Source of the DNA: Roseobacter sp.
GTDB taxonomy: Bacteria > Pseudomonadota > Alphaproteobacteria > Rhodobacterales > Rhodobacteraceae
Reading direction: 5' to 3'
Assembly: GCA_015665415.1 (NCBI GenBank)
Contig: JADFAE010000005.1
Span: 310,001 to 374,000 of the forward strand
DNA length: 64,000 bases
Within the stretch, counting starts at the first letter, position 1; the number at the start of each line of letters is the position of its first letter. Shown piece after piece: positions 7,482-42,431 of this stretch. A model generated the notes under the pieces. It was not told where the DNA came from. It searched no databases and saw nothing but the letters and a program-made list of their open reading frames with translations. Both the position numbers and the translations under genes were made by a program.

Positions 7482-7556
7482 TGGCAGCCCGTAGGGGAGT
7501 CGAACCCCTCTTTTCAGGTTGAAAACCTGACGTCCTAACCGATAGACGAACGGGCC
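7482..7556 (-). tRNA. tRNA-Glu (anticodon UUC), copy 1
   Basis: Read on the minus strand, a 7-bp acceptor stem starting GGCCCGT is matched by ACGGGCT followed by G and an encoded CCA. The anticodon stem TCAGG/CCTGA encloses the loop TTTTCAA, giving anticodon UUC. The T-arm GGGGTTCGACTCCCC is standard. It is identical to the copy at 7732-7806, which lies upstream on the same strand. Confidence 0.96.
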
Positions 7557-7731: not shown

Positions 7732-7806
7732 TGGCAGCCCGTAGGGGAGTCGAACCCCTCTTTTCAGGTTGAAAACCTGACGTCCTAACCGATAGACGAA
7801 CGGGCC
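7732..7806 (-). tRNA. tRNA-Glu (anticodon UUC), copy 2
   Basis: Identical in sequence to the copy at 7482-7556, with encoded CCA and the same cloverleaf. The 5' flanks of both copies share AGCGGTATTTA (7568-7578 and 7818-7828), so the duplication included part of the promoter region. The spacing between copies is 250 bp. Confidence 0.96.
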
Positions 7807-29567: not shown

Positions 29568-31559
<1,992 letters not shown>

Positions 31560-31606: not shown

Positions 31607-32095
31607 TTGCGCTTTTCCTCTTTATGCATTTTCTTTTGCGTTTCGGCCCAGTCTGGCGTGGCTTGTCCTGCTGGCTCGGAAACTCTGGTCTCCTGTACTC
31701 TCAAAGACGGCAGCAAGATGCTCACGACCTGTCTGCAAGGTGATCAGGTGAGATATGCCTTTGGGCGCAGTGGTGGTGATCCGGACCTGGCGTTGCTCCG
31801 TAACGTACGGGACGTGAATATGGTGCCTTGGCCAGGGATCGGCAGCTCTATCTGGGAAGAGTTCACTTTTGACAATGAGGGCACTTCCTACACTATCTAC
31901 TACAGTCAGGAGCGCGACCCGGGTGCTGAGGAACCACTGAGTGGCGGGGTTATTGTCGAACAAAGCGGTAAGGAACTGGCTCATCTGCGTTGCGACAAGG
32001 GGAGCGTGCAGAGTTCCGGCTATGGTTTGCCCCTGTTTGAAGCCAAGGAACGCGCCGGACAGGTCTATTCGCTGGAAACCGGAAGCTGGCAATAG
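31607..32095 (+). CDS. Exported protein of unknown function
   Basis: A 162-residue protein starting at TTG 31607 with a strong GGAGG six bases upstream. The N-terminus (MRFSSLCIFFCVSAQSGVA) looks like a signal peptide, with likely cleavage before CPAG. The mature protein is beta-rich, with SETLVSCTLKDGSKMLTTCLQGDQVRYAFG, and contains several Cys that may pair. I do not recognise a named family, though similar small secreted proteins occur in Rhodobacteraceae. It lies three bases before the DCC-family gene and is probably in its operon. Confidence 0.7.
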   Translation: MRFSSLCIFFCVSAQSGVACPAGSETLVSCTLKDGSKMLTTCLQGDQVRYAFGRSGGDPDLALLRNVRDVNMVPWPGIGSSIWEEFTFDNEGTSYTIYYSQERDPGAEEPLSGGVIVEQSGKELAHLRCDKGSVQSSGYGLPLFEAKERAGQVYSLETGSWQ

Positions 32096-32098
32096 GGG

Positions 32099-32560
32099 AT
32101 GGGCAGAGCCGTAGGACCCGAGCCGAGCCCTGTGACCGGTGACCTCATCGTCTTTGACGGTGAATGTGTGCTGTGCTCGCGGTTTTTCCAGTTCATGCTG
32201 CGCCATGACAGGGAACAACGGTTTTCCTTTGCCACCGCGCAATCCGCCCTGGGCCAGCGGCTGTATCGCGAGCGCGGCCTGCCTACGGATGAGTTCGAGA
32301 CCAATCTCGTCTTTGTCGATGGGCACTGCTATCAGCGCCTCGATGCCTTTGCCGCCGCGATGCGGGCGCTGCCGGGGGCCTGGCCACTGCTGGGGCTGTG
32401 CCGCTTTCTGCCGGGATTTGTTAAAGACCCACTCTACCACGCTGTTGCGCGCAATCGCTATCGTATCTTTGGCCGCACCGAGACCTGCATGGTGCCCAGT
32501 CCAGAGCTGCGGGCACGGTTTCTGGATTGGATCCCAGCGCAGCAAGAAGACAGCGCATGA
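32099..32560 (+). CDS. Thiol-disulfide oxidoreductase, DCC (DUF393) family
   Basis: A 153-residue protein with the family-defining N-terminal motif VFDGECVLCSRFFQFML: the DxxCxxC (Cys23, Cys26) after a thioredoxin-like first strand. The downstream pattern GLCRFLPGFVKDPLYHAVARNRYRIFGR is also typical. Such proteins are thought to be thiol-redox enzymes of unknown substrate. The first 12 residues are probably over-extended: a GTG at codon 12 is a possible start. The stop overlaps the next gene by four bases (ATGA). Confidence 0.85.
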   Translation: MGRAVGPEPSPVTGDLIVFDGECVLCSRFFQFMLRHDREQRFSFATAQSALGQRLYRERGLPTDEFETNLVFVDGHCYQRLDAFAAAMRALPGAWPLLGLCRFLPGFVKDPLYHAVARNRYRIFGRTETCMVPSPELRARFLDWIPAQQEDSA

Positions 32561-33129
32561 GCGATGCCTTTGGTCAAATCATAATAGAGCGCGGCCTGAA
32601 AGTGCCTGCGGTGGTGGCGCGGTTTCATGCCGCCGGATCTGGCCGATATAAGGGCCAGGCTGAAGTCGAGGCAGGCAATGCCCTGGCCCGTTTGATTGCC
32701 CGTCTTGCGGGCTTTCCGCCCGCAGGCCACAGCATTCCTTTTGAGATTTTGGTTGAACCGCAGGGGCAGGGCCATCTTTGGCGGCGGTGTTTTGGGCGCA
32801 GCCAGACGCTGTCCCACCTCCGCTACGACAGCCAAAGCGGCTGTGCCATCGAAGGCTTTGGCCCGTTCCGGTTCTATATGGACCTGCGCCTGCTGGGAGA
32901 GACGCTGGCGGTTGATGTCTCGCGTATGGAGGTTCTGGGGCTGCCGCTGCCGCGCTGGCTGACGCCCCGGTCGGCGGCGCGCGAATTTGAGGCTGTTGAT
33001 GGCGAATTTGGCTTTGATATCTCGGCCAGCCTGCCGCTGGTGGGGATGCTGATCCGCTACCGGGGCAGTTTTCCCGTGCCCGGCACCGGCATTGCTAACG
33101 AGCGCGCCGGATCGTTAACCAATTCCTAA
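32557..33129 (+). CDS. DUF4166 domain protein
   Basis: A 190-residue protein of the DUF4166 type, recognised from SGRYKGQAEVEAGNALARLIARLAGFP near the N-terminus and the middle pattern GQGHLWRRCFG. The C-terminal part contains PLPRWLTPRS and the segment GMLIRYRGSF. No catalytic motif is evident. It overlaps the DCC-family stop by four bases, so the two proteins are translationally coupled and may share a pathway. The family is often near fatty-acid or redox genes; function is unknown. Confidence 0.8.
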   Translation: MSDAFGQIIIERGLKVPAVVARFHAAGSGRYKGQAEVEAGNALARLIARLAGFPPAGHSIPFEILVEPQGQGHLWRRCFGRSQTLSHLRYDSQSGCAIEGFGPFRFYMDLRLLGETLAVDVSRMEVLGLPLPRWLTPRSAAREFEAVDGEFGFDISASLPLVGMLIRYRGSFPVPGTGIANERAGSLTNS

Positions 33130-33173: not shown

Positions 33174-33221
33174 GAGACCTGTCTCGCTGCCACGAGATGT
33201 AACGACCAAATGGGGGTGCGG

Positions 33222-33530
33222 ATGTCTGCCAATCAGAAACTGACCCTGGCGCTGGCTGCGCTGGAACAGCAACTTGAAACACTAAAGACTCTGACCGATG
33301 CCAATGAGTTCATGGTCACGGCTCTGAAAGAACAGGGCGAAGATCTAAGGCAAATGGAGGCAGATGCGGCCCGCGATATGTTGCGGGGGCAGGCTCGGGC
33401 GCGCTTTGATGCGGAAGATGGGACCGCGCCGGATGCGGCGGTTCTGGCGATCCTGGAGCAAAGCCTCGGCACCGGTCTTGGGGCCCAGATCATTCCCTTC
33501 CCAATCGCCGCCACCAAGCAACAGGCGTGA
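33222..33530 (+). CDS. Small coiled-coil protein of unknown function
   Basis: A 102-residue protein. The N-terminal 55 residues form a heptad-like coiled coil (LALAALEQQLETLKTLTDAN, then LKEQGEDLRQMEADAARDML). The C-terminal part is short and ends with IIPFPIAATKQQA. No signal peptide or domain is evident. I chose the ATG at 33222 because GGGGGTG is well placed upstream; an in-frame ATG at 33210 is the alternative. The candidate CtrA sites upstream suggest possible cell-cycle control. Confidence 0.6.
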   Translation: MSANQKLTLALAALEQQLETLKTLTDANEFMVTALKEQGEDLRQMEADAARDMLRGQARARFDAEDGTAPDAAVLAILEQSLGTGLGAQIIPFPIAATKQQA

Positions 33531-33703
33531 TCTGAAAGCCCAAGCACGGAACCGGCTAGGCTTTTGGAGTGAAGCCCAAGGGCGTGGGTGAAATTGCGGC
33601 TGTGCTGCCGCAAACGGACCGATTTCTTGCCGACCTTCCCCTTGGAACCGGATGTCTGCCTGCCTATGTAGGGTCCAGACACTGGAAGGCAGGAAAAGAT
33701 CTC

Positions 33704-34114
33704 ATGAAAAGCAAAGTCATCGCAGCTGGACTTGCGGCAGCTCTTTTGGCACCGGTCAGCGCCGAAGCCTTTACCACCCCACGTGGCGTCAAGGTCAATC
33801 CGGTGAATGAACTGATCTTTGAGGTCATTCCCACCAGCTCTGGCTCTTACGGGGATTTCTGGTGTGGGGCGTCTGAATACGCCCGCCGGGTCAAGGGCGC
33901 GGGTTGGACCGACCGGGTCTATGTCGTTCAGGGACGCGCGACCAGCGTGACCACTGGTCGCCGTTCTGCGGTGCAATTCACCCTTTCGCCCGTCAAAGCA
34001 CAGGTACCTCCGCCGCCCCAGGGCTGGCTGGCGCTGGGCATCAAGGCAGGTGGCAGCATGTCGATCCAGCAGGCCAGATCTCATTGCGATCAGCAGCCGA
34101 TCAATTTCAACTGA
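33704..34114 (+). CDS. Exported two-cysteine protein, tandem paralogue 1 of 3
   Basis: A 136-residue protein with a signal peptide (MKSKVIAAGLAAALLAPVSAEA, cleavage after residue 22). The mature part begins FTTPRGVKVNPVN and carries the signature shared with the next two genes: a hydrophobic-FEV strand, DFWCG, then YARR, a V/I-YV strand, RRSAVQFTL and a late Cys (SHCDQ). Exactly two Cys remain after processing, so one disulfide is expected. The ATG has AGGAAAAG upstream. No known family is recognised. It acts in the periplasm or outside. Confidence 0.78.
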   Translation: MKSKVIAAGLAAALLAPVSAEAFTTPRGVKVNPVNELIFEVIPTSSGSYGDFWCGASEYARRVKGAGWTDRVYVVQGRATSVTTGRRSAVQFTLSPVKAQVPPPPQGWLALGIKAGGSMSIQQARSHCDQQPINFN

Positions 34115-34136
34115 TTGGTTCTGTTTGATGCCCCAC

Positions 34137-34173
34137 GGCCAGCAATCCTCGCCTTGGCTGAGGGTCGCTGGCC
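34137..34173 (+). terminator. Nested hairpin after paralogue 1, possible terminator
   Basis: GGCCAGC (34137-34143) pairs with GCTGGCC (34167-34173), and inside it CCTC (34147) pairs with GAGG (34160). No U-tract follows, so its role as a terminator is uncertain. Confidence 0.35.
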
Positions 34174-34345
34174 TGGCGCGGAATGAGCGGCATGTTTAGG
34201 CGTTAAGCTTGTGAAATCCAGCCCTGATCACCCAGAGGGCACAGATACGTGTGGCACGCAACTGTGACTGGCCTTGCCGGTGAGGCTGCCTAATTTGAAG
34301 GGGAGCCTCACGTGTGGGCTGTTCCTTTGGATGAAAGGCTTTGCC

Positions 34346-34759
34346 ATGACTATTCTCTCTCGCACCCTGGTTGGGGCCAGTATTGTTGCACTGCTCATGG
34401 CAGGGTCCGCCTCTGCCTTTACCTCGCGGGATGGAACCCGTGTCAATCCACTGTCCGAGGGGCGTTTCGAGGTGGTGCCACGAGCGGGTGGCGTAGGACG
34501 GGACTATTGGTGCGCTGCGGGGGACTATGCCCAGAGGGCGCTCAAGGCCCCCTGGGCGGCTCAGCTCTATATCTCCCGCTCCCGCGGTCCCAGCGAAACC
34601 ACCAACAAACGCTCAGCAGTGCAATTTACCCTGCGCGCTGATCTTGCTGGCGGGCCGGAAAAGGGCGATCTTGGCAGCGTCAATTCTTTGGCACGCGGCG
34701 ACAATATGAGGGTGCAAGAGGCCTTTCGCTATTGCAGCCAGTTGCCAACGGGGTTCTGA
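34346..34759 (+). CDS. Exported two-cysteine protein, tandem paralogue 2 of 3
   Basis: A 137-residue protein with a signal peptide (LVGASIVALLMAGSASA, cleavage after residue 24). The mature part FTSRDGTRVNPLSEGRFEVVP aligns with paralogue 1, then DYWCAAGDYAQRAL, KRSAVQFTL and a terminal Cys (RYCSQ). Exactly two mature Cys. The ATG at 34346 has AAAGG upstream; the in-frame ATG at 34331 lacks a good site. An 8-bp inverted repeat (GTGAGGCT/AGCCTCAC, 34280-34287 and 34304-34311) lies in its leader. Sequence divergence from paralogue 1 shows an old duplication. Confidence 0.78.
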   Translation: MTILSRTLVGASIVALLMAGSASAFTSRDGTRVNPLSEGRFEVVPRAGGVGRDYWCAAGDYAQRALKAPWAAQLYISRSRGPSETTNKRSAVQFTLRADLAGGPEKGDLGSVNSLARGDNMRVQEAFRYCSQLPTGF

Positions 34760-34851
34760 GATCGCGCCAATAGGGCGATTGATCGCAATCTGCTATGCTA
34801 TGGTCTGAGCCGCATTTGTTGCGGCCCGTTGACCAGGGAAAGGCACAGGAG

Positions 34852-35295
34852 ATGAGGCGAAACTTTCGAAACAGAGCCAGGTCAGGCCTTGCCCGGGGGG
34901 CGCTGATTGCGTGGTTGATTGTGCTGCCGATTGCGGCCCAGGCCTGGTGGGCCTGGAACCGGCATGAGGTGCTTCCCGTTGCCGAAGGCGTCTGGGAAGT
35001 GGTCAATGAGGTGGGCACAGGGGCGCAGGACTACTGGTGCGGCATCGGGGATTTTGCCATTCGCCAACTGCGCAGCAAAGCAACCCAGCGGATCTATGTC
35101 TGGCAGGCTGTCGGGCCAGCGGTGAACCGACCGGGGCGCAAATCGGTGCAGTTCTCCTTTGCGCCTCCCCCGGGCAGCAGCAACAAACGCGGCTATTCCC
35201 TGAGCATCAAGATCCCTGGCTACAGTCTCAATGCGGCCACGGCGCGCTACTATTGCTTTGATCGGATGGATGATCCGTTTTTTCGCCGCTTCTGA
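34852..35295 (+). CDS. Exported two-cysteine protein, tandem paralogue 3 of 3
   Basis: A 147-residue protein with a longer, basic N-terminus and hydrophobic core (GALIAWLIVLPIAAQA, cleavage about residue 31 or a retained anchor). The mature part keeps the family pattern: VWEVVNEVGTGAQDYWCGIGDFAIRQLR, an IYVWQAVGP strand, RKSVQFSF and a late Cys (YYCFDR). Exactly two mature Cys again. It is the most divergent of the three. The start at 34852 has AGGGAAAGG upstream. An opposite-strand open frame here is a shadow. Confidence 0.75.
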   Translation: MRRNFRNRARSGLARGALIAWLIVLPIAAQAWWAWNRHEVLPVAEGVWEVVNEVGTGAQDYWCGIGDFAIRQLRSKATQRIYVWQAVGPAVNRPGRKSVQFSFAPPPGSSNKRGYSLSIKIPGYSLNAATARYYCFDRMDDPFFRRF

Positions 35296-35349: not shown

Positions 35350-35769
35350 ATGCAACAGGAATTTCAGATCGCAACCCGGGGGCAGGGCCTCTATGAATTC
35401 ACCTCCGAGCTGCGGCAGTGGCTGGCAGGGGCGCAGCTGCAGGTGGGTCTGATGACGCTGTTTGTGCGCCATACCTCCTGTTCCCTGCTGATACAGGAAA
35501 ACGCCGACCCTGAGGTGCAGGGAGATCTGCAAGCTTTCTTTGCCCGCTTGGTGCCGCCTTCCAATGATCCGTCGATGTCCTACTTGCGCCACACCTATGA
35601 GGGGCCGGATGATATGCCCGCCCATATCAAGGCGGCGATGATGCCGGTGAGCCTCTCTGTCCCGATCTGCGATGGTGCCTTGGGACTGGGGACCTGGCAG
35701 GGGATCTATCTGTTTGAGCATCGGGATGCGCCGCATCAGCGCCGCATCCTGGCCCGTATCAGCCCCTGA
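35350..35769 (+). CDS. YjbQ family protein (UPF0047; secondary thiamine-phosphate synthase-like)
   Basis: A 139-residue protein. The family signature is present: GLMTLFVRHTSCSLLIQENAD (about 33-53) and SVPICDGALGLGTWQGIYLFEHRD near the C-terminus, with the conserved His and Glu that line the pocket. E. coli YjbQ has weak thiamine-phosphate synthase activity, but the true role is unsettled. It stands alone between the exported paralogues and nrdR. Confidence 0.9.
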   Translation: MQQEFQIATRGQGLYEFTSELRQWLAGAQLQVGLMTLFVRHTSCSLLIQENADPEVQGDLQAFFARLVPPSNDPSMSYLRHTYEGPDDMPAHIKAAMMPVSLSVPICDGALGLGTWQGIYLFEHRDAPHQRRILARISP

Positions 35770-37641: not shown

Positions 37642-39663
37642 CTAGCTACGCCGCCACAGATGCGCATAGGTGGCAAAAACCCCTTGCAGCTTTGACAGTG
37701 CCCGGTTGCCTAGGCCTGGTTGCGGCAGCTCCCCTGAAATCAACCGCTCCACCACCACTTCCGGTGGGCAGGGCTGCTGGGTGACGGGGTCAAAATAGCG
37801 CGGGTAATCAATCAGCACCGCATGGGCCAACCCCAGCAAATCAGGGCGTGCTCTGCGCCAGGGCGGCGGTGTGCGCTTGTCTGTCGTAAGACCCCAGCCC
37901 GCATAAAAGGGCAGGCCAAGCGTGGTCACCTTGACGCCGCGCAACAACGCCTCAAACCCCAAGAGCGAAGTCAGTGTCCAGACCTCTTGTACCATATCAA
38001 GCAGGGCCATCGGATCGCTGTTGCTGGCCACCACATCCGCCAGGTTTTCTGGGATGATTTCCCCCTGTCGCAACCCGGCCTCAACATCGGGGTGGGGCTT
38101 GTAGATGATCACCGCCTTGGGGTTGGCCCTGCGGGTGGCTTGCAGCAGCGCGAGATTGGTGTTGATGCGGCCACAGCCTGCCAGGATCGAGGCGTCGTCC
38201 TCCACCTGGCCGGGCACCAATATGCGATGGCCCGGTGGCAGATCCGGCACCACACCCGCCAGATTGTATTTCGATACGCTGTTGCGGATCAGCTGCTGCA
38301 CCAGGGCTTCGGCGCGCAGCGCTTCGGCAGGGCCCAGGTCAGCGCGCAGGGTGATAAGATCATCCAGGTCCGAGGGCTGGCGCGGGTCGTAGTAGATGCC
38401 CTGGCGGTCCAGCACCAGCGACATCGGCGGCACCAGGTCGGCCCCCAACCCCCGCGAGCGCAGAAAGCCGTCTTCTAGCCGGGCCGCCCCATCGTGGATC
38501 TTGGCGGCCTTGCCGGCCCAGACCATCCAGTTGTGCCCGCTCTTGCGCGCCTCTTGCGGCTCTTCAGTGAAGATCAGTTTTTTGGTCTGGCCAAAAAAGC
38601 CCTGCAGTGGCTTGCGCTTCCACAGCCGCATGCCCGAGGCCACCCAACCGGCCTGATCCTGTCGCCAGGCACGGGCCTGGGCCTCCAAGGTGTCGATGAC
38701 GCGCTCCAGCTCGCACAATTGGTCGCTGTAGGGGTCATACCATTTGGGATAGAGGATCATCGCCCCACTGAACAGCTGTGCCCGGGTCAATCGGCGTTGG
38801 CGACGCGTTACCGGGTCTTCGTCTGTGGTGAGGCCCCAACCCGCATAAAAGGGCTGGCCAAAGACGCGCGGCTTATGGCCGGACAGGATGGCCTCAAAGC
38901 CCAGCTGGGAGGAGACCGTATAGACCGCTGTGGCACCCTCGAGCAGAGCCCAGGGAGAGACGGCATCGCTGAACAGCTCGATCCGACCCTGCGCGTCTTG
39001 GGCCATGAAATGCCCGGGGCGATGGCCCGCACTGGTTTCAGGGTGGGTCTTGATCAGGATGCGCGAACCGGGGTTTTCCTCTTGGGCAAAGACCAACATT
39101 TCGCAGAACCGGGCCCGGTCCGCCCGGGAGGCCGTCACCGAGGCATCGCCGCGCAACTGGTCCACCACCAGCACATAGCCGGGATCCGGCAGCGGTGCCT
39201 CGGGCAAAAAACCGTTGTATTTGCTGAGGTGTGCGTCCTGCAATCGACCGATCGCATTGCGGGCCCGTCGCATCATGTGGCTGTCGTCCAACGGATGTGT
39301 GGCCAGCAGCTCCTCCAGGTCCGATGGGGTGCTGGGGTCAAAATGCAGCCCCTTGCGATCCAACAACAGCCCAAGAGGAGGCTCTCCGCTTCGGCCGGGA
39401 TGAATGGAGCGCAGAAAGGCATCTTCGATCCGCAACAGACCTGCCTCGTATTTTTGCGCCACGCTGCGGCCCCGGTGGGCGGTGGGTGAATTGCCCCAGA
39501 TGCCAACCAGATCGCTCTCTTGCGGCAGGCCGAGACGGGTTTGAAAGCCCGCGAGGTTCAGAATGCGGCGCAGACGCGGTTGGGTCAGAAAACCACCGTT
39601 GTAAACAAAAAGCCGGGAGCGTTTGCTCCCGGCCTGGGTTTTTGAAGTTGCGTCTTTGCGCAT
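37642..39663 (-). CDS. kpsC: Capsule polysaccharide Kdo-linker transferase KpsC
   Basis: A 673-residue protein made of two similar halves, as in KpsC, the dual retaining beta-Kdo transferase that builds the lipid-anchored Kdo linker of group 2-type capsules. Each half has the E-D-x-FLRS motif (RIEDAFLRSI and RLEDGFLRSRG), the Kdo-site HP (KTHPETSAG, KPHPDVEAG) and the FYAGWGLTTD motif. I chose ATG 39663 rather than a TTG at 39699 that overlaps wza. It follows wza (4 bp gap) and kpsS on the same strand. It acts at the cytoplasmic membrane. Confidence 0.9.
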   Translation of the reverse strand: MRKDATSKTQAGSKRSRLFVYNGGFLTQPRLRRILNLAGFQTRLGLPQESDLVGIWGNSPTAHRGRSVAQKYEAGLLRIEDAFLRSIHPGRSGEPPLGLLLDRKGLHFDPSTPSDLEELLATHPLDDSHMMRRARNAIGRLQDAHLSKYNGFLPEAPLPDPGYVLVVDQLRGDASVTASRADRARFCEMLVFAQEENPGSRILIKTHPETSAGHRPGHFMAQDAQGRIELFSDAVSPWALLEGATAVYTVSSQLGFEAILSGHKPRVFGQPFYAGWGLTTDEDPVTRRQRRLTRAQLFSGAMILYPKWYDPYSDQLCELERVIDTLEAQARAWRQDQAGWVASGMRLWKRKPLQGFFGQTKKLIFTEEPQEARKSGHNWMVWAGKAAKIHDGAARLEDGFLRSRGLGADLVPPMSLVLDRQGIYYDPRQPSDLDDLITLRADLGPAEALRAEALVQQLIRNSVSKYNLAGVVPDLPPGHRILVPGQVEDDASILAGCGRINTNLALLQATRRANPKAVIIYKPHPDVEAGLRQGEIIPENLADVVASNSDPMALLDMVQEVWTLTSLLGFEALLRGVKVTTLGLPFYAGWGLTTDKRTPPPWRRARPDLLGLAHAVLIDYPRYFDPVTQQPCPPEVVVERLISGELPQPGLGNRALSKLQGVFATYAHLWRRS

Positions 39664-39667
39664 GTCG

Positions 39668-40801
39668 TTACAGACCGAGCGACGTCGCGGTGCTGGCAAT
39701 CGGCGACAGCGGGCTGACCAGAAGCGAGATGGTCTTGGTCCACTGGGCGTAGGGGGCCTCGGTCACATAAAGCGTGTCTTCGTCGCGGATCACAAAATCA
39801 CGGGCGACAAACAGGCCGTTGGGCTGGGTGAGATTGAGAACATAGACCAGCCGTTGAGCGCCGACGAGATCGTCGCGCCCCAGAACCTGATTGGCGATTT
39901 CCGCGGGCTCGTTGCGCAGCACAAAGACGCCGGTAGGGTCGGAGTTGGTGGAAATCAGGCCGCCAACCTGGGCAATGGCCTCCAGCGCCGACAGATCCTG
40001 GCTCTCAAAGGGCACGCGGGCCTGTGCGCTGGTTGCCCCCAAAGCGGTAAAGGAGCGGCTGTCAGCCTTGACCAGAATGCGGTCGCCGCCGCGCAGTGCG
40101 ATATCGAGCTCGGGGTGGTTGAACAGGTCCTGGAACCAGATCTTGCCCTGCTCCTTGCCGCGGATCACGGTGACCTGGGCAATTTCGGGCTCGATGGCGA
40201 CGCCTCCGGCACGGGCCAACATGGTCGAAAGCGTTCGGGTTGGGCGTTCGATGGCATAGACGCCCTGGCCTCCAACCGCGCCGGTCAGGCTGACGGTAGA
40301 GCCATCACCGGCCACGCGGCGCACCTGCACCTGCGGATCCGGGGTCTGATCTTCGAGCTTCTTGGTGATCATTTCGCGCAGTTGCTCAGGCGTGTTGCCC
40401 GAGGCCCGCAACCGCCCGGCATAGGGCACAAAGATAAATCCGGCGCTGTCGACCTGCACTTCTTCCAGTGCGGTGGCGTTGGTGGCCTCGCTGGCCAGCA
40501 ACCCATCATCGACGTTTTCCCAGATTGTCAGACCCAGCACATCGCCGGGGCGAATGGTGTCCGAGGTCAGCCGACCGGCATTGATGAAACCACTGGAGAA
40601 ACCCAAGGCCGGCACCACGGCGGTGGCGCGGGTGACACGGTCGTTGACAGAAACGATAAAGGCATCGCCTTGTTTCTGCACCGACCCGGCAAAGATTTCG
40701 CGTTTGTTGGGGCCAACTTTTGGCAGGCCACAGGACGCAGCGAGCGTCAATGCAGCCAGCATCGCCATAGGGCGCGCCCAGGAGAGGGGGACATTTTTCA
40801 C
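39668..40801 (-). CDS. Polysaccharide export outer-membrane lipoprotein, Wza/KpsD-like
   Basis: A 377-residue lipoprotein: signal peptide MLAALTLAASC with lipidated Cys24. A poly_export domain follows (IRPGDVLGLTIWENVDDG, then VDSAGFIFVPYAGRL), then SLBB-type segments (GQGVYAIERPTRTLSTMLARAGG, SALEAIAQVGGLI). Such proteins form the outer-membrane translocon for capsule. The C-terminus (KTISLLVSPLSPIASTATSL) could be the amphipathic membrane helix. It sits between kpsS and kpsC, so all three probably serve the same capsule. An ABC transporter (KpsMT) is not in the window. Confidence 0.9.
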   Translation of the reverse strand: MKNVPLSWARPMAMLAALTLAASCGLPKVGPNKREIFAGSVQKQGDAFIVSVNDRVTRATAVVPALGFSSGFINAGRLTSDTIRPGDVLGLTIWENVDDGLLASEATNATALEEVQVDSAGFIFVPYAGRLRASGNTPEQLREMITKKLEDQTPDPQVQVRRVAGDGSTVSLTGAVGGQGVYAIERPTRTLSTMLARAGGVAIEPEIAQVTVIRGKEQGKIWFQDLFNHPELDIALRGGDRILVKADSRSFTALGATSAQARVPFESQDLSALEAIAQVGGLISTNSDPTGVFVLRNEPAEIANQVLGRDDLVGAQRLVYVLNLTQPNGLFVARDFVIRDEDTLYVTEAPYAQWTKTISLLVSPLSPIASTATSLGL

Positions 40802-40897
40802 TGCTCGGTCTCCTCGACCTATTATTATTCTGCCTCGGTTTTTTGGGCCAACCTAACGAGGTGCCGCCAGAAAATCCAGTCCTGCGAGAGGTTTCGC

Positions 40898-42190
40898 CTA
40901 GCGGACCACAGATAACTGTTGCCGGGGTGCCGCTGTCCCATGACGCAGGGCCTCATAGGGGTCATGGGGTGCAAGCATCATGTCCACCACGTGGCGCAGC
41001 AATTGATGACGGCCAGAGCGGGAATAGAACCCGCCGGGAACCTGCGAGGTCTCGAGCAAATAGCGGCGGTAGTCCTTATAGGCGCGGTTGTCGGGCCGCG
41101 CCGGTGCTGCAAAGAACTCTGACAGCGGTTGATCAGAGGTGAATTCTGCCTTGTCATAGACCGCAGCACCAAACACCTTGAGCGGAATGCCGCGCCACAG
41201 GACCTGCTGACCCGCCGTCGAATTGACCGTGACAGCGGTGCGGGCCTCGTTCAGCAATGCGGCCAGTTTGCCGCCGCGCACATAGTGGACGCGGGTCTCG
41301 ATGCCATGGGCCTGGGCCAGGCGGCGCAGCTCACGGCGAATGGGGCTGCGCCCGTCTTCCAGGGGATGCGCCTTGATCACCAGATGATGATGACGCGCGG
41401 CACCGGCGGCAAAGCCGGAAATGACCTCCGCAAGAAACTCCGTCATGGTGCCAAAGGGGGAGTGTTTCTGGAAGGAGCTGTCGTGTTCCAGCTGCAACAA
41501 CGCCAGATGATAGGGAAAGCCGCCATTGCGAATGCGGCGGGTGGCCAGACGGCGCTCCAGCGCTTGGGCGGGCATCAGCAGCAACCGTTTGAGATAGAGC
41601 TGGAATTCCTGGGTGACAGCCAGGGCGCGATGGGGGCGGAAATTGCTGTATTGGCGATTTCGAAACATCACGAACCAATGATACAGCGCGCCGTAGAACA
41701 CGTGCTGGCGCATGTCACCCCAATGAGAGGGCGGCAAGGGCGCTTCCATGTCCGACCGTTCTAGGGCGACCTGCATGTCCGGAACTGTGGTTTGCATCAG
41801 CTTTGAATGGCCATTGGAGCCTTCGCGCTCATAGGTGACCCAATAGGGACGCAAATAGCCCTCCTCAAAGACATGCACCCGCAGACCCAACGCCCGAGCC
41901 GCCTTGATGGCCTCGGCGTGGATAGGACGGGTGTCGCCATAGAGCACCAGATCGGTGATATTCTTGTCTTGGCAACACTGCTGGAAAAAGGCTGGCCATT
42001 GCTCCAGCGCGCCCCGATAGGGCAAGTAGTGTTGCTTGTCGCGCCAGAAGGCCTGATCCCCGGCATTAAAGCCGATACGCCAGACGGTGCAGCCTGCGGT
42101 GCGCAACATCTTTCCCAATGCATTGAAAAACGGGCCATGGGGACCCTGCAAAAGCAAAAAGGAGCGCTGAGAAGGGCTGCGGGGTGTCAT
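40898..42190 (-). CDS. kpsS: Capsule polysaccharide Kdo-linker transferase KpsS
   Basis: A 430-residue protein of the KpsS type, which adds the first Kdo to phosphatidylglycerol. Family features are the N-terminal SFLLLQGPHGPFFNALGK, then VHVFEEGYLRPYWVTYE (E-G-Y-L-R-P motif) and HHHLVIKAHPLEDGRS, with the Kdo-site HP. ATG 42190 was preferred to a TTG six codons earlier. It is first in the kpsS-wza-kpsC set. The 96-bp gap to wza contains no clear promoter. Confidence 0.9.
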   Translation of the reverse strand: MTPRSPSQRSFLLLQGPHGPFFNALGKMLRTAGCTVWRIGFNAGDQAFWRDKQHYLPYRGALEQWPAFFQQCCQDKNITDLVLYGDTRPIHAEAIKAARALGLRVHVFEEGYLRPYWVTYEREGSNGHSKLMQTTVPDMQVALERSDMEAPLPPSHWGDMRQHVFYGALYHWFVMFRNRQYSNFRPHRALAVTQEFQLYLKRLLLMPAQALERRLATRRIRNGGFPYHLALLQLEHDSSFQKHSPFGTMTEFLAEVISGFAAGAARHHHLVIKAHPLEDGRSPIRRELRRLAQAHGIETRVHYVRGGKLAALLNEARTAVTVNSTAGQQVLWRGIPLKVFGAAVYDKAEFTSDQPLSEFFAAPARPDNRAYKDYRRYLLETSQVPGGFYSRSGRHQLLRHVVDMMLAPHDPYEALRHGTAAPRQQLSVVR

Positions 42191-42431
42191 CGGGCTTTCG
42201 CTTGGCAAAGGGTGTATCCTTGGGGCTTGTTCAAGCTTTAACAGTTTTCTGGGGCAAAACTATGTCCAATGCGCGCCAATGGCTGTTTTGCGGGCTCCAA
42301 TGAGTGCGGGGAGCGGGGTCGGCTCGGGCCAGGGCAGGCCAAGTCTGCTTTGGACGTCGGGGACTTGTGAAGCCGCCGCGCCTCGGCTACCTCTGGGCTC
42401 TGAAATCCTGCCGCAGCCTAGGAGAGGCCTC

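Follow-up and report, generated by a model that had tools for sequence, protein, structure and literature searches.

We identified, in a 64,000-nucleotide stretch of Roseobacter sp. DNA (hereafter, the window), three tandem genes from a genuine, uncharacterised protein family that has no convincing match in Pfam, NCBIfam, PHROGs, PADLOC, or the PDB. The family is apparently restricted to the Rhodobacteraceae, as far as it has been sampled, and seems to comprise two old subfamilies, which we call A (P1 and P2) and B (P3). On average, all three genes are under purifying selection. Our preferred reading is that these old and stable Rhodobacteraceae paralogues encode a non-enzymatic, disulfide-stapled periplasmic module with a binding or structural role, which exists in A and B forms. 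We hold this reading tentatively, as a little short of evenly balanced.

The array consists of three intact open reading frames on the + strand (positions 33704-35295 of the window), which encode homologous proteins of 136-147 residues (Table 1). The gaps between the genes are 231 bases (P1-P2) and 92 bases (P2-P3). A search of the whole genome with P2 as the query returned P1 (E = 6.8e-25) and P3 (E = 2.2e-11) besides P2 itself, with no further relatives at E up to 10. In a three-way alignment, P2 is 39% identical to P1 and P3 is 30% identical to P1; the invariant positions are E-V, D-x-W-C, V-Q-F, one glycine, and a late cysteine. As judged by eye, each protein begins with a stretch that can be read as a signal peptide, so the proteins are apparently exported. 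The original prediction of three tandem, deeply diverged paralogues with an exported look and two cysteines is borne out by the reading frames, the search of the genome, and the alignment. Most of the shared motifs that it listed are there too (E-V, W-C, V-Q-F, and the late cysteine), but R-x-S-V-Q-F is off in one detail: the motif is R-S-A-V-Q-F in P1 and P2 and R-K-S-V-Q-F in P3.

Table 1. Features in and around the array (positions within the window).
Feature	Positions	Strand	Remarks
Tandem tRNA-Glu (ttc) genes	7482-7556 and 7732-7806	-
rpoD	29568-31559	+	named from sequence; syntenic upstream neighbour of the array
Exported-looking protein	31607-32095	+	162 aa, several cysteines; between rpoD and the DCC1-like gene
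DCC1-like thiol-disulfide oxidoreductase	32099-32560	+	PF04134, E 7e-29; 1.1 kb upstream of the array
DUF4166 protein	32527-33129	+	PF13761, E 4.3e-29; follows the DCC1-like gene
Small protein	33210-33530	+	about 100 aa; just 5' of the array; no Pfam family above cut-off
Promoter-like element before P1, CTTGGAAC-N15-CTATGTAG	33641-33671	+	63 bases before the ATG; in 12/12 genus genomes, fixed spacing
Paralogue 1 (P1, subfamily A)	33704-34114	+	136 residues; cysteines at 54 and 128; signal peptide judged by eye
Terminator-like site, end of gene 1	34095-34120		consensus scan
Nested hairpin after P1	34137-34150 / 34160-34173	+	14 nt, 86%; not conserved
Conserved block before P2, GTGTNGCAC ... GTGACTGG	34249-34272	+	GTGTNGCAC in 10/12 genus rows (alignment by eye)
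Inverted repeat, P2 leader	34280-34290 / 34301-34311	+	11 nt, 91%; not conserved
Paralogue 2 (P2, subfamily A)	34346-34759	+	137 residues; cysteines at 56 and 130; signal peptide judged by eye
Paralogue 3 (P3, subfamily B)	34852-35295	+	147 aa; signal peptide by eye; mature part modelled, 34945-35292
Terminator-like site, end of gene 3	35263-35277		consensus scan
yjbQ (UPF0047, PF01894)	35350-35769	+	named by Pfam; syntenic downstream neighbour; followed by nrdR and ribD
Two Capsule_synth proteins (PF05159) flanking a Poly_export/SLBB protein	37642-42208	-	between ribD and ribE

Several searches bear on whether these proteins belong to a known family. First, P1, P2, and P3 have no matches in Pfam at E up to 10. 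NCBIfam gave two rows, for P1 alone (E = 0.09-0.12), and PHROGs gave a single row, for P3 (E = 0.43). No PADLOC model matched at E up to 1 (0 families), so we have no sign from these models that the proteins belong to an anti-phage defence system. P2 did not match any sequence in the PDB. A profile of 62 members reached E = 0.47 at best against the PDB sequences, and a profile of 134 members reached E = 0.04, with antibody light chains at the top.

Second, we scanned the members of the family against these databases. The commonest weak Pfam row among the 134 members was DUF2914 (PF11141), with matches in seven of them and a best E of 0.0018, but P1, P2, and P3 are all unmatched. DUF2914 was also absent when ten members were scanned singly at E up to 0.2, though those ten may not include the seven. 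In NCBIfam, a model for iron superoxide dismutase matched 2 of the 134 members (best E = 0.0099). Both sets of rows are isolated, weak, and near chance level, and neither gives the family a convincing identity.

Third, none of the papers listed in a literature search names the family. (Papers are not searchable by sequence.) Profile searches for a characterised family with a housekeeping function did not find one either, and the rows from Pfam, NCBIfam, PHROGs, PADLOC, and the PDB were at chance level at best. The original assessment that this is no known family still stands.

We then asked which genomes have the family. (All of the following counts refer to samples of genomes, not to all genomes.) With P2 as the query, we found matches in 87 of 295 Rhodobacteraceae genomes, with 160 copies in total: 45 genomes had one copy and 42 had two to five. 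A profile (A2) matched 126 of 292 genomes from the order Rhodobacterales, and all of those among the matches listed are Rhodobacteraceae. Because relatives were not found in 208 of the 295 genomes (with P2) or in 166 of the 292 (with A2), the family is dispensable to many Rhodobacteraceae.

In a sample of the class, A2 matched 4 of 385 genomes, all of them Rhodobacteraceae. A broader profile (A3) matched 7 of 385 genomes from the class, 4 of them Rhodobacteraceae, and 10 of 398 genomes in a sample of the phylum, 9 of them Rhodobacteraceae. The A3 matches outside the Rhodobacteraceae are pieces of 17-58 positions with E = 0.003-0.01; one of them has an internal stop codon, and one genome accounts for a match in both samples. 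We regard these as chance-level scraps. A caveat is that the profile searches of the order, class, and phylum scored the best 10-14 candidates per genome, so distant kin may escape. A scan of named genomes with P2 identified 47 loci, nearly all of them from roseobacters and Paracoccus. P2 did not match any of the phage records or viral contigs that we searched; it matched two plasmid records, both from Paracoccus, and P3 matched none of the plasmid records.

This distribution is reminiscent of the signature proteins, many of them annotated as hypothetical, that are restricted to the Rhodobacterales (Gupta and Mok 2007; PMC2241609). In our samples, the family was likewise found in Rhodobacterales and nowhere else. 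However, signature proteins of the type in their Table 4A are in all of the available species, while the family was found in just 87/295 or 126/292 genomes. Their list is keyed by TM1040 locus tag, and the family could not be mapped to any of the tags.

The array occupies an old and widely kept slot. In most of the roseobacter loci examined, it lies between rpoD and yjbQ-nrdR-ribD. (We named yjbQ and nrdR by Pfam, and rpoD, ribD, and ribE from sequence.) Among 29 short-flank loci (1.5 kb or less on either side), we found rpoD in 22, yjbQ in 23, and nrdR in 20. Of the named loci, 16 do not belong to the Paracoccus set, and one or more of these three genes are present in 12 of them. (We did not count one locus whose rpoD match is 29% identical.) Two diverged copies also follow the end of rpoD, recognised as a reading frame that runs into the gene. 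The Paracoccus loci have one copy each, mostly beside pepF, a dipeptidase, and an RbsD-like gene (labels that we read off the sequences), and the flanks examined contain none of rpoD, yjbQ, or nrdR. The conserved neighbours look like plain synteny rather than partners, and the neighbours are different in Paracoccus, so we set the gene neighbourhood aside as a clue to function. Among 10 loci with long open frames, we saw no fusion to another domain (by reading).

Other genes near the array can be described briefly (Table 1). The exported-looking protein encoded just after rpoD matches nothing in Pfam at E up to 0.1, and we found relatives in just 2 of 76 loci. The small protein encoded just 5' of the array has relatives near the array in four loci. 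The three gene clusters of the region with the capsule proteins are seen again in 10 named loci.

To see what kind of domain these proteins might have, we turned to predicted structures. AlphaFold gave confident models for P2 (from 62 sequences; pLDDT 86.8, pTM 0.79) and for mature P3 (from 134 sequences; pLDDT 88.0, pTM 0.81). In both models, the order of elements is strand-strand-helix-long strand-strand-short strand-helix. By residue number, both cysteines lie within the two helices of each model, so the cysteines most likely form a single disulfide that staples the two helices together.

The original prediction had proposed a search for lectin, inhibitor, or enzyme folds. This yielded the two models but not a convincing fold match. 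Foldseek searches of the PDB with both models gave nothing at E of 0.001 or better (the E-values were 0.24 and above), and neither did a search of BFVD with the P3 model, whose best match was an unnamed 266-residue entry (E = 0.032). In a second fold comparison, the best row for the P2 model was Lip1, a subunit of the yeast ceramide synthase (Z 5.2, rmsd 3.4 over 78 residues). The P2 model also overlapped weakly with Hint1 (Z 4.7, rmsd 4.4 over 80 aligned residues), while the P3 model reached at most Z 3.6, with Lip1. All of these values are under a Z of 8, below which the tool warns of common arrangements. Lip1 has just 8% identity and belongs to a eukaryotic membrane complex. HIT (histidine triad) proteins such as Hint1 have a conserved His-x-His-x-His motif. 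By this motif, we excluded membership of the HIT family, as no well-filled column of the family alignment has histidine in at least 30% of the 134 rows. The proteins also look exported, and the HIT proteins that the P2 model brought up do not appear in the rows listed for the P3 model. None of the inhibitor, lectin, or thioredoxin-like folds stood out among the matches listed for either model. Still, the fold need not be new just because its matches are weak or missing.

We also examined which positions are conserved. Our alignment (A3) includes 134 of 155 rows; the 21 left out come from 19 loci. (From the window's own genus, 33 of 36 rows are included, and the three left out are all from one genome.) The first cysteine is present in 134/134 rows, but this is partly by construction, as having W-C or [WFYM]-C was the basis for choosing rows. 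The second cysteine was not a selection criterion, and it is present in 133/134 rows; the exception is a reference that we had cut short. Exactly two cysteines are found in the stretch counted as mature in 132/134 rows. The conserved pair of cysteines in the original prediction is therefore a property of the family as a whole. Columns in which one residue makes up at least 75% of the 134 rows are mainly W, C, F, G, V, A, and L. The best-kept charges, in the numbering of mature P3, are E18, D/E36, and R40. This pattern is what one would expect of a structural core more than of an active site. Lipoprotein-like signals were seen in some members: 9 of 95 rows have a lipobox pattern, of which we judged three to be real, and two other loci also have lipoprotein-like leaders. 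These signals fit a location in the envelope.

On this basis, we propose that P1-P3 are old paralogues that would have stayed at their ancestral position downstream of rpoD. Each product would be exported via its signal peptide and is predicted to fold into a small single domain, in which the two cysteines would form one disulfide that staples both helices. In the periplasm, it would then serve the cell envelope in a binding or structural role, not as an enzyme. Subfamilies A and B may be produced together so as to share out tasks or to complement each other, and they might even act as partners. We suggest a non-enzymatic module because the conservation pattern shows no evident enzyme-like cluster of charged residues or histidines. 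A few charged columns are fairly conserved, so a catalytic activity would also be compatible with the alignment.

Many of these features would also suit small, disulfide-bonded proteins that bind and inhibit envelope hydrolases in the periplasm. The targets could be lysozymes, proteases, or other enzymes that cleave murein or protein, and they would differ between A and B. Such inhibitors might well be small, exported-looking domains with two cysteines, with some lipoprotein-like members, no enzyme-like conserved cluster, and paralogues kept side by side. But no inhibitor family from Pfam matched P1-P3, and none is among the Pfam families listed for the sets of 62 and 134 members. The C-type lysozyme inhibitor families are MliC/PliC, and their Pfam profiles do not match P1-P3 at E up to 10. 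In NCBIfam, a kinase-inhibitor model matched 1 of the 134 members at the level of chance (E = 0.076). Also, the low dN/dS ratios (see below) seem unlike what a contest with changing foreign enzymes would produce. We consider inhibition to be unlikely, if worth keeping in mind.

A bolder idea is that this is a new fold family that arose at the rpoD-yjbQ interval in the ancestor of the Rhodobacteraceae, split early into A and B, and formed an A-B envelope complex that is peculiar to the lineage. We think that this full scenario is quite unlikely.

We then considered how the array might be controlled. Upstream of gene 1, all 12 genomes from the genus have an element of the form CTTGGA-N17-NTATNT, at 53-66 bases 5' of the start. 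A scan for sigma-70 consensus promoters found 0 (0.3 were expected) and did not report this element. Its C-37, TTG at -36 to -34, T-13, and T-9 are present in 12/12 genomes and its C-14 in 7/12. A study of Rhodobacter sphaeroides names these positions (C-37, TTG, C-14, T-13, and T-9) for RpoHI and RpoHII promoters (PMC3441632). This raises the possibility that an RpoH-type sigma factor transcribes gene 1 and that the products are part of stress-responsive quality control in the envelope, where they would protect exported proteins from damage by heat or oxidation.

We have several pieces of evidence against this. First, the same layout (CTTG-N19-CTNNNT) is found just upstream of tRNA-His (48808, + strand) and tRNA-Glu (7852, - strand), and the strict form of the element occurs 9 times in the 64 kb, counting both strands. 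Second, the exact form is absent within 400 bases of our controls, groES and three hsp20 genes. (By reading, groES does have a GTTG-N19-CT form upstream, which speaks for the RpoH idea.) Third, the pattern is not enriched in the genome: allowing up to 2 mismatches, we found it 45 times and a control pattern 43 times. Finally, the regions upstream of the first gene in 29 loci from other genera match the element no better than shuffled sequence does; for the best two of these loci, 8 and 10 of 100 shuffles were as good. We view both transcription of gene 1 by an RpoH-type sigma factor and a role in stress-responsive quality control as improbable.

Separate control of the genes had originally been suggested from an inverted repeat in the leader of P2 and a nested hairpin after P1. 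Both exist in the window, but the exact core arms were found in just 1 of the 12 genomes from the genus. (The search for the arms covered up to 260 bases before gene 2, and the spacer is longer in two of the genomes.) Nor did fold z-scores indicate a consistent structure in the spacers across the 12 genomes. For the spacer after gene 1, the z-score is -2.4 in the window; the other 11 genomes give values from -2.0 to +1.3, and two of the 12 fall below -2. For the spacer between genes 2 and 3, it ranges from -3.3 to +1.6 and is below -2 in three. Separate control is supported in part by other evidence: one conserved block precedes gene 1 and another precedes gene 2, and genes 1 and 3 have terminator-like sites at their ends. 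(A consensus scan found six such sites, versus 1.9 expected.) The repeat and the hairpin are not a basis for it, but judging from these other signals, gene-specific control of genes 1 and 2 is plausible.

Another question is how old the subfamilies are and whether they are still diverging. In a quickly built tree (106 rows, 119 columns), P1 and P2 fall in one group (A) and P3 in another (B), with supports of 81-94 and many forks left open. (The tree includes 12 rows from the genus, representing 4 of the 12 genomes; 59 rows that were re-derived via the W-C motif; and 35 rows from named loci. Members from three loci that lack W-C are in A3 and are absent from the tree.) P2 groups with sequences from other genera, in a set of 7 rows, and apart from P1, so the split between P1 and P2 predates the genus. 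In the loci in the tree that hold both subfamilies, every A is upstream of every B (15/15), and the gaps from A to B are often 0-50 bases. (Two overlaps of -166 are an artefact of stop-to-stop coordinates.) Within the locus DNA examined, five loci have A only and five have B only, so a partnership between A and B would not be obligatory at one locus.

Within the genus, all 12 genomes have three copies, in the order P1-P2-P3. The copy-number check that accompanied the original prediction thus gives a constant three copies in the genus and, from the P2 search, 1 to 5 copies among Rhodobacteraceae outside of it. Across the 12 genomes, the orthologues have mean identities of 70% (P1), 65% (P2), and 73% (P3), as compared to 39, 27, and 29% between paralogues. 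The median dN/dS is 0.140 for P1, 0.139 for P2, and 0.132 for P3, and the highest values are 0.23, 0.34, and 0.25. We computed these ratios from 66 pairs per gene, after dropping 3, 19, and 8 pairs (for P1, P2, and P3) in which dS was saturated. Because the median dS of the remaining pairs is 1.3-1.7, the ratios are rough, and as they are averages over the gene, a few sites could be changing.

It had been suggested that the proteins diversify for competition between strains or for interactions with eukaryotic hosts. Tandem, exported-looking paralogues with deep divergence, and with 1-5 copies across the Rhodobacteraceae, might seem to fit. But fixed copy number and order in 12/12 congeners, orthologues that are on average 65-73% identical, and a median dN/dS of about 0.14 (with 0.34 for the highest pair) argue against diversification. 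So do the array's place at a fixed housekeeping locus, the lack of relatives of P2 in the phage records and viral contigs searched, the scarcity of plasmid matches, and the lack of a PADLOC match. We find this suggestion decidedly improbable, and we think that a long-standing, constrained function in the envelope fits the facts better than a diversifying one. The variation in copy number outside the genus does leave room for adaptive turnover.

It is very improbable that the two strictly conserved cysteines alternate between dithiol and disulfide forms and so act as a sensor or carrier of redox state, as a DCC1-like gene 1.1 kb upstream might hint, given that the cysteines of P1-P3 are 72-74 residues apart with no C-x-x-C and that a DCC gene is near the family in just 3/29 loci with short flanks and 0/47 named loci.

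The Rhodobacteraceae abound in the sea and on algae, and lineage-restricted, nameless exported proteins such as these account for part of what distinguishes them. The family can be described as a new family of the Pfam type, with two subfamilies, A upstream of B, and 1 to 5 copies per genome in our sample. As it is compact, single-domain, well modelled, and constrained at a fixed place, it is tractable for deletion, localisation, and structural work.
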